From: an uncultured bacterium
Lineage (GTDB): Bacteria > Armatimonadota > HRBIN16
Reading direction: 5' to 3'
Length of the DNA stretch: 34,242 bases
Assembly: GCA_938027655.1 (NCBI GenBank)
Contig: CALJAP010000084.1
Span: 1-34,242 of the forward strand
The notes under the pieces were generated by a model. The model did no database searches. It had not been told where the DNA came from and saw only the letters and a program-made list of their open reading frames with translations. Shown piece after piece: positions 1 through 5,119 of this stretch (position 1 is its first letter; each line of letters starts with the position of its first letter). Both the position numbers and the translations under genes were made by a program.

Positions 1-467
1 CCGGTGTCCAGCAGGAGCAGAATCAGTGCCCTGTCTCGCAGGGGGAGCCATCCCTTGCCTGCACACGCCTGCAGGAGTTTCTCCACCTCTTCGGGCGTCA
101 GGGCACGCTTGAGCACCTGTTCCCGCTTCGGCGGTTCCACCTTCGCGAAGGGGTTGTGTTCGGTCAGTCCTTCACGGATGCACCAGTTCCAGAAGGTTCG
201 CGGGTTGCGGTAGCAGTTAAAGAGAGTGTGCGAGCTGATGCCCTGTTGCTGGCGGTGTAGAAGCCACCTGCGGATGTGCTGAGGGGTAACATCCTCAAGG
301 CGCACACAGCCCTGCTCGTGGAGGAATGTCACGAAGAGGGTAACATGCTCGCGGTACGTCTGGAGGGTGCGCACTGACACGCCTCTTGCCCGTAGAGCTT
401 CCAGCCACAGCTCCAGTGTGGTAAAAAGCAGGTTTGTGTCTGTGATGCGGAATCCGGCGGTCTGCAT
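1..467 (-). CDS. Tyrosine recombinase/phage integrase, N-terminal part (runs off left edge)
   Basis: 155 codons are present, read from the minus strand. The visible part has the SAM-like core-binding domain of XerC/XerD/phage integrases: a helical segment with LELWLEALRARGVSVRTLQTY, then LFVTFLHEQG and the PQHIRRWLLHRQQQGISSHT stretch, then the linker NPFAKVEPPKREQVLKRALTPEEVEKLL that opens the catalytic domain. The window ends at LILLLLDTG, just before the first catalytic Arg (TGLR in the family), so the Arg-His-Tyr residues cannot be checked. The ATG at 467 is preceded by an AGGAGG (complement of 477-482) at good distance. It lies 93 bases downstream of tRNA-fMet on the same strand, which fits either a XerC/D-type housekeeping enzyme or the integrase of an element inserted at the tRNA 3' end. 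Family is sure; role is not. Confidence 0.9.
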   Translation of the reverse strand, partial: MQTAGFRITDTNLLFTTLELWLEALRARGVSVRTLQTYREHVTLFVTFLHEQGCVRLEDVTPQHIRRWLLHRQQQGISSHTLFNCYRNPRTFWNWCIREGLTEHNPFAKVEPPKREQVLKRALTPEEVEKLLQACAGKGWLPLRDRALILLLLDT

Positions 468-563
468 GATTTTGTGCCTCCTGTTTGTGTTTGCTGGAGA
501 CACAAGATGTAGTAGCTGGCAGGCTGTTCAGAGGCTAAGCAGCACAACCTGTAGGGGGAATGG

Positions 564-636
564 GTGCGGGGGAGGGATTTGAACCCTCGACCTCCGGGTT
601 ATGAGCCCGGCGAGCTGACCGCTGCTCCACCCCGCG
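564..636 (-). tRNA. Initiator tRNA-fMet, anticodon CAT
   Basis: On the minus strand this folds as a complete cloverleaf. Acceptor CGCGGGG pairs with CCCCGCA except at the first pair, giving the C1xA72 mismatch that marks bacterial initiator tRNA. The anticodon arm is CCGGG-CTCATAA-CCCGG, with the three G:C pairs also typical of initiators, and the T arm is GAGGG-TTCAAAT-CCCTC. The base after A72 is C rather than the usual A73, followed by an encoded CCA (561-563). A promoter is directly upstream. Confidence 0.97.
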
Positions 637-685: not shown

Positions 686-1444
686 TCACCGAAAACGCCA
701 TAACAGGTTCGCTCCTCTTTCTTGAGCGAGAATGGAGGCGGCGGAGAAGGTTTTGGCGTGTCCGTCGGCAAAAAGAAGCGTTGCCAGCCCGTGATTGTCT
801 CCGGTGGCAAAGTGGCGAGCGTAGAGCGGTTTGAGCTGCGCGGGCGGCAGATGGTTTAACTCGCGCACGAGGTCGCGGTCGGCAACCAGCGGCGTTCCCA
901 GTCGCGGGTCTGTGGAGTTCGGTTGCCCAACGTAGGGATCAAACACGTATCCACGATACTTCTGCGCAGTAGGTCCACTGGGGGTGTCCCCGAACAGCGG
1001 TATACGGGCAGGTTCATCCATTTGCGCCAGCACTGCAGGGGTAGAGAACCCTTCCCTCTCCAGCGGGTCGTAAGCAGTGGCAGCGGTATAACCTATCGAC
1101 CCGATACCGCGCCCTGACCAATCGGCGGGAAAGCCAGCACTGCTAGCGCTGGGGCAGACAAAAATACGGGTATCACGCACGTAGGGCTGTATCAGGCGTG
1201 TCCAGATGCGCTCGGGCACGCTGGTGGACACCGCATAGTTGGTCGAAGGGGGAAGTGCTTCATCGTAGTCCTGGGTGTAGGTATAAACAGCCAACCCCAG
1301 CTGGTGCGCGTGCGAGAGGCAGCGCGTCACTCGACCCCGCTCCCGTGCCTGAGCAAATGTGGGTAACAGCAACGCAGTCAGCACGGCAATGATAGCAATG
1401 ACACCTATCAACTCCACGAGCGTAAATGCTGTGCTCTTCACCAT
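686..1444 (-). CDS. Type IV prepilin-like DUF1559/H-X9-DG family protein
   Basis: 252 aa. The N-terminus MVKSTAFTLVELIGVIAIIAVL is a type III (prepilin) signal: cleavage is expected before F7, with the conserved Glu at +5 of the mature protein and a hydrophobic helix after it. Then follow AQARERGR, a single Cys, and TQDYDEALPP. The C-terminal NHGLATLLFADGHAK matches the family's H-(8/9)-DG signature. Such proteins are made as pseudopilins and processed by a prepilin peptidase; their individual roles are mostly unknown. The start at 1444 was chosen over an in-frame ATG at 1492 because the prepilin leader must be short and GGGAG lies about 9 bases upstream. It is divergent from a paralogue at 1593. 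Confidence 0.85.
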   Translation of the reverse strand: MVKSTAFTLVELIGVIAIIAVLTALLLPTFAQARERGRVTRCLSHAHQLGLAVYTYTQDYDEALPPSTNYAVSTSVPERIWTRLIQPYVRDTRIFVCPSASSAGFPADWSGRGIGSIGYTAATAYDPLEREGFSTPAVLAQMDEPARIPLFGDTPSGPTAQKYRGYVFDPYVGQPNSTDPRLGTPLVADRDLVRELNHLPPAQLKPLYARHFATGDNHGLATLLFADGHAKTFSAASILAQERGANLLWRFR

Positions 1445-1490: not shown

Positions 1491-1496
1491 ATTATA
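1491..1496 (-). promoter_or_regulatory. -10 box of the minus-strand prepilin gene
   Basis: A perfect TATAAT on the minus strand, about 47 bases before the ATG at 1444. No good -35 is found at 16-18 bases (best is AGAACA), which suggests an activator-dependent promoter. The repeat array at 1509-1546 starts 12 bases upstream of it. Confidence 0.5.
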
Positions 1497-1508
1497 CATC
1501 CATCCGGT

Positions 1509-1546
1509 TTAGCATGTTCTTAACCTCCTGTTAATCCGTCCTTAAC
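1509..1546. promoter_or_regulatory. Four TTAAC-like pentamers at exact 11-bp spacing (Pho-box-like operator)
   Basis: TTAGC at 1509, TTAAC at 1520, TTAAT at 1531 and TTAAC at 1542: four direct repeats spaced exactly 11 bp apart. Direct repeats with one-helical-turn spacing are the normal target of OmpR/PhoB-family response regulators, and the TTAAC core resembles the Bacillus PhoP box. The array ends 10 bases before a plausible plus-strand -10 (CACAAT, 1557-1562) and starts 12 bases from the minus-strand -10, so one regulator could control both prepilin genes. Regulator identity is inference. Confidence 0.55.
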
Positions 1547-1592
1547 GCAGCTGTAGCACAATACACCTGCTGAAACTCACAGGAGGTGTCGC

Positions 1593-2441
1593 ATGGTCCG
1601 GAAAGCGTTTACGCTCATCGAACTGCTCGTCGTCATCGCGATTATCGCGATATTGGCGGCGATCCTGTTCCCCGTCTTCTCGCAGGCGCGTCTGTCCGCG
1701 CGTAACACCCAAGACCTGTCCAACATTAAGCAGCTGGGCTTAGCTGCGGCGATGTATGCTCAGGACTACGACGAGACTTGGGTACCAACCGGCTCGGAGT
1801 GGGACCCCAACTGCACGCCCCAGATTTCGCCTGTACGGTGTGACGGCACACCCCACCGCGGTTGGGGCTTGTTGCTGATGCCGTACGTCAAAAACGGCGA
1901 GATGTTCCGCTCACCGATGCTGGAGCGGGTGGGCTACTTTACCAATGAGTGTGCTCCTGCCAGCGGCACGCAGATGACAAATACGTACTCGATGAACTAT
2001 CTGCTGTCGCGTGATGGGACGTATCCGTTCGGCGACTACGCCAGAACGCCCTCTGGTTTTGAGCTGCGTTCCCCTGCAACGCTTGCAGAGATCGCTCAGC
2101 CGGCAAACACCGTAGCTATTCTGCTGTCGAACAGCGTGCCTCCGCGCGGAGCGTCGTGGGGATGCAATTACGTGACCCTCGAGGGTTCCGATTTCATCAA
2201 CAAGATTCGCTATCGTGCTCTGTACAAGGACGGTAGCAATATCGCTTTCGCTGACGGGCACGCCAAGTTCTTTGTTTCAAGGGAGCTGGACTCGGCGGGC
2301 AAGGGTTATCCTCGTTGCAACAACGGTCCAAGCCATACATGCTACATTTGGCCTGAGCGCGGCATTTGGATGGTTCCGAACTACCCCAACGACACGCTGG
2401 GCTACCAGGTCGGACTGATTCGGCATTCGTGCGCTCAGTAG
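1593..2441 (+). CDS. Type IV prepilin-like DUF1559/H-X9-DG family protein
   Basis: 282 aa. It has the classic prepilin leader [19 protein letters not shown], with cleavage expected before F6 and Glu at +5, then [13 protein letters not shown], a [18 protein letters not shown] stretch, and near the C-terminus the [12 protein letters not shown] signature. The product should be an inner-membrane pseudopilin processed by PilD-type peptidase. The globular part has several Cys (for example [10 protein letters not shown] and the C-terminal CNNGPSHTC), suggesting disulfides outside the cytoplasm. The start is fixed by AGGAGGTG at 1581-1588. The phosphoesterase gene follows 95 bases downstream with a hairpin between them, so partial read-through is possible. 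It is a paralogue of the divergent gene at 686-1444. Confidence 0.88.
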
Positions 2442-2536: not shown

Positions 2537-5119
2537 GTGAAGTCTTTTTATCCCGTTCTGCCCGTCGTGTTGTGCTTGAGCAGTCTTTGCTTCTCTGCAC
2601 CCGACGACCGAGTTGGCTCCCAAACGAACCGTTCTCACCTTGTGCCCACCTCTCAGCTCCTGCGTCCTGCGGGGGACAGCCTGCAGTTCGGTGGTAGACC
2701 GCTAGATATAGCACTGTCACCAGATGGACGCACTCTCTACGTGAAGGACAACCGCGGCATCGTGGTGGTGGATATGGAGGCGTGGAAGGTGCGTCAAGAG
2801 CTGCCTGTGGCGCGAGGAGGCAGCTCCATGCAGGGGATTGCGGTGGCTCCCGATGGAACACGAGTGTACCTCACCAATGCTGCCAGTGAGCTGCTCGAGG
2901 CGGTGGTGCAAACAGACGGTAGCCTGCAGTGGGGCAGGAGTATGGACATGCCGCGACCATCGGTGGGTGGGCAAAGCTACCCCTGTGGTATCGCTTTGAG
3001 TGCAGATGGCAACACGGCGTATGTTGCCCTCTCTCGTAACAACAGCCTGGCAGTAGTAGACTTGCGCGACGGCAAGGTGATTGCGCAGATTCCTGTGGGC
3101 GTCGCACCGTTCGCGGTAAAGGTCTCACCCGACGGTCATCGCGTGTACGTATCCAACTGGGGCGGACGCCATCCTAAGCAAGGCGAGAAAACCGCTGAAA
3201 CGTCGGGCACGCCTGCTCTGGTGGACTCACGCGGGGTTGCTGCCAGTGGAACGGTGTCGGTAGTAGACCTGCAGACGAAACGGGTTGTCGCGGAGTTAGA
3301 GGTTGGATTGCAACCGGGTGGGCTTGCTCTGGATGAAGTGCGCGGTCGGCTGTATGTTGCCAACGCCAATTCGGACACGGTGAGCGTGATCGATACCGGC
3401 TCGCTGCAGGTAGTGGAGAGCATTTCGGTGCGCCCTGACCCATCCTTGCCCTTTGGCAGTATGCCTAACGGGCTTGCACTGACGCCGGATGGCAACACGC
3501 TATTCGTCGCCAACGGGGGCAATAACGCAGTAGCAGTCGTGCGCATCGACCACCGGCGCAACCGCAGTAGAGTCGAAGGGTTCATCCCCACGGGCTGGTA
3601 CCCAGGCGCGGTGCTTACCGATGGCAAGAGGCTGTTTGTTGCCAATATCAAGGGGTTGGGTTCGCGCCATCCCCGGCCGGAGCAGAAAGGCTGGAACGTG
3701 TACAGCTTTTTGGGCACCGTGAACCGGGTGCCTGTACCTGACCGCCGGCAGCTCGCCCGCTACACCGCGCAGGTGAAGCGCGACGCGCGCGTGCCCCAGA
3801 TATTGCGGGCATGGGAACGCTCCCAAGCAGGCAAGAAACCTGTGCCTGTGCCGGAGAGGGTAGGCGAACCGTCGGTCTTTGAGCACGTGGTGTACATTAT
3901 CAAGGAGAACCGCACTTATGACCAGGTGTTCGGCGCGATCGGCAAAGGGGATAGCGAACCGTCCCTGTGCATCTTTGGCAGGGAGGTGACGCCGAACCAT
4001 CACGCGCTCGCCGAGCAGTTTGTCCTGCTGGATAACTATTACTGCAACGGGGTCAACTCGGCGGATGGGCACGCCTGGTCTACCGAGGGCAACGCCACCG
4101 CCTATCTGGAACGCTCCTTCGGCGGCTGGACGCGCAGCTATCCCTTTGGCGATGACCCGCTGTCATACTCCTCCAGCGGCTTCCTGTGGGACCATGTGCT
4201 GGCAGCAGGTCTCTCTTTCCGCAACTACGGCGAGATGGACTATGCTGAGCCGGTGCCCGCCGACGCTTCTTTCGTGGACATTTACAGGGATTTTGTGGAG
4301 GGCAAGCGCAGCATCCGGTTTACGCAAAAGGTTGGGGTAGAAAACCTGCGCCGCTATAGCTGCCCCAGCTATCCGGGCTGGAATATGCGTATCCCCGATG
4401 TACTCCGCGCCGATGTTTTCCTGAAGGAGCTGAAGGAATTTGAGCAGAAGGGATACTTCCCGAACCTGGTGATTATCTACCTGCCTCAAGACCACACCTC
4501 CGGTACGCAACCCGGTATGCCCACGCCGCGCGCGCATGTGGCGGATAACGACCTCGCACTGGGACGCATTGTGGAAGGCATCAGCAAAAGCAAGTTCTGG
4601 CAGAGGACCTGCATCTTTGTCATCGAGGACGACCCGCAGGACGGCTTTGACCATGTAGATGGACATCGTTCCCTGTGCCTCGTCATCAGCCCGTACACGA
4701 AGCGTGGGGCAGTAGTGAGCGAGTTCTACAACCAGGGCTCGGTATTGCACACCATCTGCCGTATTCTGGGCGTTCCACCCATGAACCAGATGGTGGCAAT
4801 GTCGCCGGTGATGACCGCCTGCTTTACCGAAAAACCGGACTTTACCCCCTACACCGCTTTACCGAACCGGATACCTCTGGACGAGCTGAACCCGCCGCTC
4901 AACGCGCTGAACCGGCAACAACGTTACTGGGCAGAAGCCAGTTTGCGCCTGCCGCTGGACAAACCCGACCGCGTGGAGGAGCACCTGCTGAATCGCATCC
5001 TGTGGCATGCAATCAAGGGTGTGGATGCACCATATCCTGCCGAATTCGCCGGCGCACATGGTAAAGGGTTGGCAGCGCGTGGGTTGGTGTTGGAATGGGC
5101 TCTATCACAAAAACAATAG
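2537..5119 (+). CDS. Secreted YVTN beta-propeller/phosphoesterase (alkaline-phosphatase superfamily) fusion
   Basis: 860 aa with a GTG start placed by GAGGAGGAG 6-7 bases upstream. A signal peptide (about residues 1-21, ending SLCFSA) points to export. Residues about 50-360 are YVTN/YncE-type propeller repeats: repeated SPDGRTLYV, APDGTRVYL, SADGNTAYVA, SPDGHRVYVS and TPDGNTLFVANGG units, each followed by a VVDL-type strand. From about residue 450 comes a PF04185-type phosphoesterase domain: FEHVVYIIKENRTYDQVFG at its start, LLDNYYCNGVNSADGHAW in the middle, and the metal-site region EDDPQDGFDHVDGHR. This two-domain form is known as the bifunctional YncE/alkaline phosphatase family; substrates may be phosphate esters or phospholipids but are not established. 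It sits downstream of the Pho-box-like array. Confidence 0.88.
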   Translation: MKSFYPVLPVVLCLSSLCFSAPDDRVGSQTNRSHLVPTSQLLRPAGDSLQFGGRPLDIALSPDGRTLYVKDNRGIVVVDMEAWKVRQELPVARGGSSMQGIAVAPDGTRVYLTNAASELLEAVVQTDGSLQWGRSMDMPRPSVGGQSYPCGIALSADGNTAYVALSRNNSLAVVDLRDGKVIAQIPVGVAPFAVKVSPDGHRVYVSNWGGRHPKQGEKTAETSGTPALVDSRGVAASGTVSVVDLQTKRVVAELEVGLQPGGLALDEVRGRLYVANANSDTVSVIDTGSLQVVESISVRPDPSLPFGSMPNGLALTPDGNTLFVANGGNNAVAVVRIDHRRNRSRVEGFIPTGWYPGAVLTDGKRLFVANIKGLGSRHPRPEQKGWNVYSFLGTVNRVPVPDRRQLARYTAQVKRDARVPQILRAWERSQAGKKPVPVPERVGEPSVFEHVVYIIKENRTYDQVFGAIGKGDSEPSLCIFGREVTPNHHALAEQFVLLDNYYCNGVNSADGHAWSTEGNATAYLERSFGGWTRSYPFGDDPLSYSSSGFLWDHVLAAGLSFRNYGEMDYAEPVPADASFVDIYRDFVEGKRSIRFTQKVGVENLRRYSCPSYPGWNMRIPDVLRADVFLKELKEFEQKGYFPNLVIIYLPQDHTSGTQPGMPTPRAHVADNDLALGRIVEGISKSKFWQRTCIFVIEDDPQDGFDHVDGHRSLCLVISPYTKRGAVVSEFYNQGSVLHTICRILGVPPMNQMVAMSPVMTACFTEKPDFTPYTALPNRIPLDELNPPLNALNRQQRYWAEASLRLPLDKPDRVEEHLLNRILWHAIKGVDAPYPAEFAGAHGKGLAARGLVLEWALSQKQ

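Follow-up and report, generated by a model that had tools for sequence, protein, structure and literature searches.

The four TTAAC-like repeats between two divergently transcribed pilin-like genes of the window (the whole stretch of DNA that was analysed, 34,242 bases long) very probably form a Pho box, at which a PhoB-type regulator is predicted to respond to phosphate starvation by activating the pilin–phosphoesterase operon of the plus strand. By its testable sequence features, the array belongs with the Pho boxes of the PhoB type. The elements of the region are:

686–1444, minus strand: divergent DUF1559 pilin-like gene (Pfam)
1491–1496, minus strand: TATAAT of the divergent pilin promoter, read from the sequence; its spacing from the array varies among relatives
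1509–1513, plus strand: unit 1 of the predicted Pho box, TTAGC, which aligns with units in seven orthologous promoters
1520–1524, plus strand: unit 2, TTAAC (sequence, shuffles and the matrix of relatives)
1531–1535, plus strand: unit 3, TTAAT (sequence, shuffles and the matrix of relatives)
1542–1546, plus strand: unit 4, TTAAC, proximal to the promoter (sequence, shuffles and the matrix of relatives)
1557–1562, plus strand: CACAAT, a −10-like hexamer that begins 15 bp after unit 4 does, with no −35 box (sequence)
1581–1586, plus strand: Shine–Dalgarno sequence AGGAGG of the plus-strand pilin gene (sequence)
1593–2441, plus strand: DUF1559/N-methylation pilin-like gene of 282 amino acids, the first gene of the operon (PF07596, PF07963, TIGR02532)
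2537–5119, plus strand: secreted β-propeller and PF04185 phosphoesterase of 860 amino acids (Pfam PF04185, E=2.8e-16)

The preliminary description of this DNA had placed TTAGC, TTAAC, TTAAT, and TTAAC at 1509, 1520, 1531, and 1542 with an exact period of 11 bp, and all four units are present there. The triplet TTA at four successive 11-bp steps has a single match in a pattern scan of the window and none in 100 dinucleotide-preserving shuffles of it. The site is intergenic, as had been claimed, and it is flanked by the two DUF1559 pilin-like genes. The product of the plus-strand gene combines an N-terminal prepilin cleavage/methylation motif with a DUF1559 domain, as expected of a DUF1559 pseudopilin. 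The gene that follows it does encode a predicted secreted phosphoesterase: PF04185 scores above the gathering score, the motifs ENRTYD and DDxQxGxDHVDxHR are conserved, and the N-terminus is signal-like.

Published Pho boxes consist of 8-bp repeats separated by 3-bp linkers and are positioned 10 bp upstream of a TAN3T hexamer (PMC1906773). The array of the window occupies the same fixed position, with some 10 bp between it and a −10 hexamer, and takes the place of the −35 box. The promoter region of the window contains no full sigma-70 promoter match on either strand. Both promoters had been described as weak and lacking good −35 boxes; the −35 boxes are indeed poor, but the −10 element of the minus strand (1496–1491) is a perfect TATAAT. 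At the window site, at the promoter of pstS, at two further pilin promoters of the same genome (contigs C27 and C127), and at about 20–25 related sites, the −10 hexamer starts at an offset of 15 bp, counted from the first base of the last TTAAY. The −10-like hexamers at this offset are CACAAT in the window, TAAACT at C27, TACACT at C127, TAACAT at C65, and TACGAT at pstS. The composite element can be written as TTAAY at an 11-bp period, 10 bp, and TANNNT.

The genome to which the window belongs (G000) comprises 3.53 Mb in 219 contigs. Near-identical named contigs, HRbin16 among them, point to the HRBIN16 group, which is assigned to the Armatimonadota and whose name occurs together with that of the phylum in the literature. 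A check of its phosphate genes, proposed together with the original observation, finds the composite element in front of pstS, the first gene of an operon on contig C92 that continues with two permease-like genes, pstB, a calcineurin-like phosphoesterase gene, and phoU. The pstS promoter reads CTTAAAATGATTTTAACAATTGTGCGCTACGAT, with the units TTAAA and TTAAC 11 bp apart and TACGAT at the 15-bp offset; it has only two units as opposed to the four of the window site, and no equally good site was obtained in 500 mononucleotide shuffles. The pattern of two units plus a −10 hexamer has only two perfect matches in this genome, one of which is the pstS promoter. Another four-unit array (C27:1914) is located directly upstream of a DUF1559 pilin gene, which is followed after 6 bp by a PF02333 phytase gene (E=5.8e-49). 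A shorter array precedes the pilin on C127, and a second pair of pilin and PF04185 phosphoesterase, on C65, has a two-unit version of the element. When 50 pilins of the genome were scored with a matrix built from relatives only, the window pilin ranked first with 30.3 bits and 41 pilins scored below 9 bits; the classes behind this matrix were partly found via related patterns, which leaves it not entirely independent of the motif. The counts against reversed patterns and the cross-class test given below provide cleaner evidence than these scores. A pilin gene on C87 (L265, 4668–3841, minus strand), which has no obvious enzyme partner, is preceded by a fairly strong site, TTAAC..GCAAT..TTAAC..TACACT, which scores 22.5 bits. 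Weaker pattern matches on C13, C120, C144, and C200 were not counted, as they lie in or beside unrelated genes.

The motif was compared across ten genomes of the genus, with reversed patterns as the control. The three-unit pattern has 11 matches and its reversed control none. The two-unit pattern with the −10 hexamer has 14 matches, again compared with 0 for the reversed control; five of the 14 represent one orthologous locus, that of a candidate RNA, and are therefore not independent. The earlier proposal that conservation at orthologues be examined was followed with a matrix derived from other gene classes only: the box is retained, together with its spacing from the −10 hexamer, upstream of the orthologous pilin–phosphoesterase operon in eight of the nine genomes scored, each of the eight promoters being matched by at most one of 500 mononucleotide shuffles, and it is absent from this operon in the ninth, G007. 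Neither of the two conditions that the preliminary description named as refuting, a lack of conservation at orthologues and absence from the phosphate genes of the genome, therefore holds. The flanks of the orthologous promoters have diverged to a mean identity of 47%; nevertheless, the columns of the array still align. In G002, the array leads an operon whose phosphoesterase is 81% identical to that of the window. Arrays also lead pilin–phytase operons in G004 and G007, a Porin_O_P–PstS–permease operon in G004 (with four units), and a pilin gene close to a contig end in G009. In front of the phytase gene of G009, the box immediately precedes the enzyme, with no pilin in between. A matrix trained on sites of the three-unit class gives no significant score to the two-unit sites at C65 and in G001 and G005. 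A third class of PF04185 paralogues, of about 928 amino acids, has neither a pilin nor a correctly placed box in nine genomes, and is a useful negative control. Contig C263 of G009 contains a Pho-box-like site of 28.8 bits (L266, 1491–1533) before the gene of a secreted protein whose tail is PEP-CTERM-like.

Exactly one Trans_reg_C domain, the DNA-binding domain of the OmpR/PhoB type, is encoded in the genome of the window; therefore, any operator of the OmpR type there has one obvious binder. The 225-residue-long regulator, encoded on contig C102, has PhoB as its best NCBIfam model, with a score of 267.4 compared with a cut-off of 296.2. The neighbouring PAS-HisKA-HATPase kinase has PnpS and PhoR as its best models (367 against a cut-off of 400, and 305.3 against 334.2). 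Since neither protein reaches the curated equivalog cut-offs, "PhoB" here means PhoB-like. The regulator and kinase genes are side by side on one strand, in the arrangement of a PhoB/PhoR pair. PhoU and PstS of the same genome score above the NCBI cut-offs. The closest solved relative of the regulator is RegX3, followed for the DNA-binding domain by PhoB of Escherichia coli, which the region of its recognition helix resembles. The claimed operator layout of the OmpR/PhoB family is thus borne out by the 11-bp tandem repeats and by the single PhoB-family regulator with its PhoR/PnpS-like kinase.

The same regulator also scores highly to the models of YycF/WalR, MtrA, and RpaB. This score pattern, together with the failure to reach the PhoB cut-off, is what could be expected if the array were the operator of an OmpR/PhoB-family regulator responding to another signal, such as envelope or osmotic stress, with phosphate genes forming only a part of its regulon. 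The sites at the C127 pilin, the candidate RNA, and the PEP-CTERM-like protein, which have no obvious role in phosphate metabolism, agree with such a regulon. However, the identified sites are dominated by pstS, the Porin_O_P–PstS operon, phytases, and two phosphoesterase classes, and the regulator and the kinase match PhoB and PnpS/PhoR best. A lone OmpR-family regulator in a genome with a full pst–phoU operon is most simply PhoB, and control by another signal is improbable.

It is less probable still that the array serves mainly as a bidirectional operator of the divergent pilin pair, to which the phosphoesterase would be incidental. The array does lie between both promoters, the TATAAT of the minus strand has a poor −35 box, and a closely divergent pilin is found beside the operon in G003 and G006. 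Nevertheless, these are the only relatives with such a pilin, and the array and the plus-strand operon are retained in others that lack it, for example G002. The distance from the array to the divergent TATAAT varies, while the spacing on the plus strand is fixed. The match of the window array on the minus strand is weak (13.8 compared with 30.3 on the plus strand, with the relatives-only matrix), and in front of the G009 phytase the box stays with the enzyme although the pilin is absent. The divergent gene at 686–1444 was rejected as a candidate on these grounds and is probably not the conserved target of the array. Of the phosphate-controlled pilin pair and phosphatase suggested in the preliminary description, the plus-strand operon is retained, for which we infer the control from pstS and the orthologous sites, and the divergent pilin is not. 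Promoters often contain TTAA-like words, but a chance periodicity of AT-rich sequence with no bound regulator has a negligible probability given the shuffles, the ten-genome counts, the conservation across diverged promoters, and the lack of an array at most other pilins of the genome.

The published operator closest to the predicted Pho box, among those compared, is the SphR/PhoB box of cyanobacteria, which has the consensus CTTAACCT and contains three or more repeats of 8 bp separated by linkers of 3 bp (PMC1906773). The two share the TTAAC core, the period of 11 bp, the presence of three or four units, and a position in front of pst genes and the genes of extracellular phosphatases. They differ in that the element described here occurs in another phylum, the flanks of its repeats are less fixed, and its operons start with DUF1559 pilin-like genes. 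The E. coli PhoB box consists, in its structural definition, of two 11-nucleotide repeats with the core CTGTCAT (PMC4415409), followed after about 10 bp by a TAN3T −10 hexamer (PMC4415409, PMC1906773). Tandem 11-bp repeats, a fixed distance from the −10 hexamer, and a homologous winged-helix regulator are common to both systems; however, the window site has a TTAAC core and three to four units, and the aligned recognition helix of the regulator differs from that of E. coli PhoB at several positions. The PhoP boxes of Bacillus are TTAACA repeats with phytase and phosphatase genes among their targets. They share a nearly identical core and period and similar targets with the array, which had been described as near to the Bacillus PhoP core; this assignment is refined here in favour of the SphR box. 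The element described here, unlike PhoP boxes, is next to the −10 hexamer throughout, and its regulator may not be an orthologue of Bacillus PhoP.

In the proposed mechanism, phosphate starvation would be sensed through Pst/PhoU and the PhoR/PnpS-like kinase. One or more dimers of the phosphorylated PhoB-type regulator would bind the 11-bp direct repeats in a head-to-tail manner and, 10 bp upstream of the −10 hexamer, take over the role of a −35 box by recruiting RNA polymerase. The operon of the DUF1559 pilin-like protein and the secreted PF04185 phosphoesterase would thereby be switched on, and the pilin may help to export, anchor, or display the enzyme. In Pseudomonas, Hxc type II secretion with the phosphatase LapA is phosphate-controlled. 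The similarity to the operon of the window, a phosphate-starvation phosphatase tied to a pilin-related apparatus, is a lead at the level of function only; unlike in Hxc/LapA, each enzyme is accompanied by one DUF1559 pilin only, and the operon contains no secretion apparatus.

The kind of operator is already known from the Pho regulon, and the less expected part is the recurrent combination of a pilin with a phosphatase. At least four of the about 54 DUF1559 matches in the genome are apparently under Pho control, and in three cases the gene of a phosphate-releasing enzyme follows directly, which makes the idea of pilins as carriers or scaffolds of cargo testable. Among the named loci scanned, a pilin beside this phosphoesterase family was found only at the genus's own three, and no general link of the family to pilins or Pho boxes was seen beyond the genus. 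Literature searches combining DUF1559 with phosphate, or Armatimonadetes with the Pho regulon, returned nothing on point. With the predicted regulon, a nutrient signal would be connected to the DUF1559 pilins, a large family with no assigned function. The phosphate regulon of an uncultured lineage of hot springs would also become readable, with a consensus for scanning any HRBIN16 genome or metatranscriptome.

A conserved candidate small RNA led by a predicted Pho box is also unusual. At C21:31990–32145 (L049, 3991–4145), a strong box with a −10 hexamer leads a highly conserved sequence of about 100 nucleotides, GGTCGCC..GCACCTGAGGCGYCCCGTAATCCCCCGGCTTCGGCGGCGG..CCGCCGCTTTTT, which ends in a hairpin resembling an intrinsic terminator. 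The sequence is also present in L229, L230, L233, L234, and L240; it has no Rfam match at the gathering threshold, and a cytidylate-kinase-like gene lies downstream of it in five of the six genomes in which the contig reaches that far. It is a candidate for a phosphate-controlled small RNA or leader.

A more speculative possibility, to which we give limited credence, is that HRBIN16 bacteria respond to phosphate starvation with modules in which a pilin acts as the dedicated exporter or surface scaffold of a phytase or of one of two PF04185 enzymes, while the Pho-box-driven RNA of about 100 nucleotides tunes the response. Elsewhere in the genome, DUF1559 pilin genes are positioned directly before the gene of a ZnuA-like zinc-binding protein (C20, L202) and before a GH43-like gene (C154, L199). 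These neighbours suggest that nutrient-specific pairing of pilin and cargo may be a wider habit, and if the paired modules exist, the ZnuA-like and glycosidase neighbours would make such pairs a general strategy.

At the start of the window, an integrase-like gene judged by eye (3–503, minus strand) is truncated by the window edge and lies beside a tRNA-Met gene (561–636, minus strand); the two may mark the edge of an integrated element.
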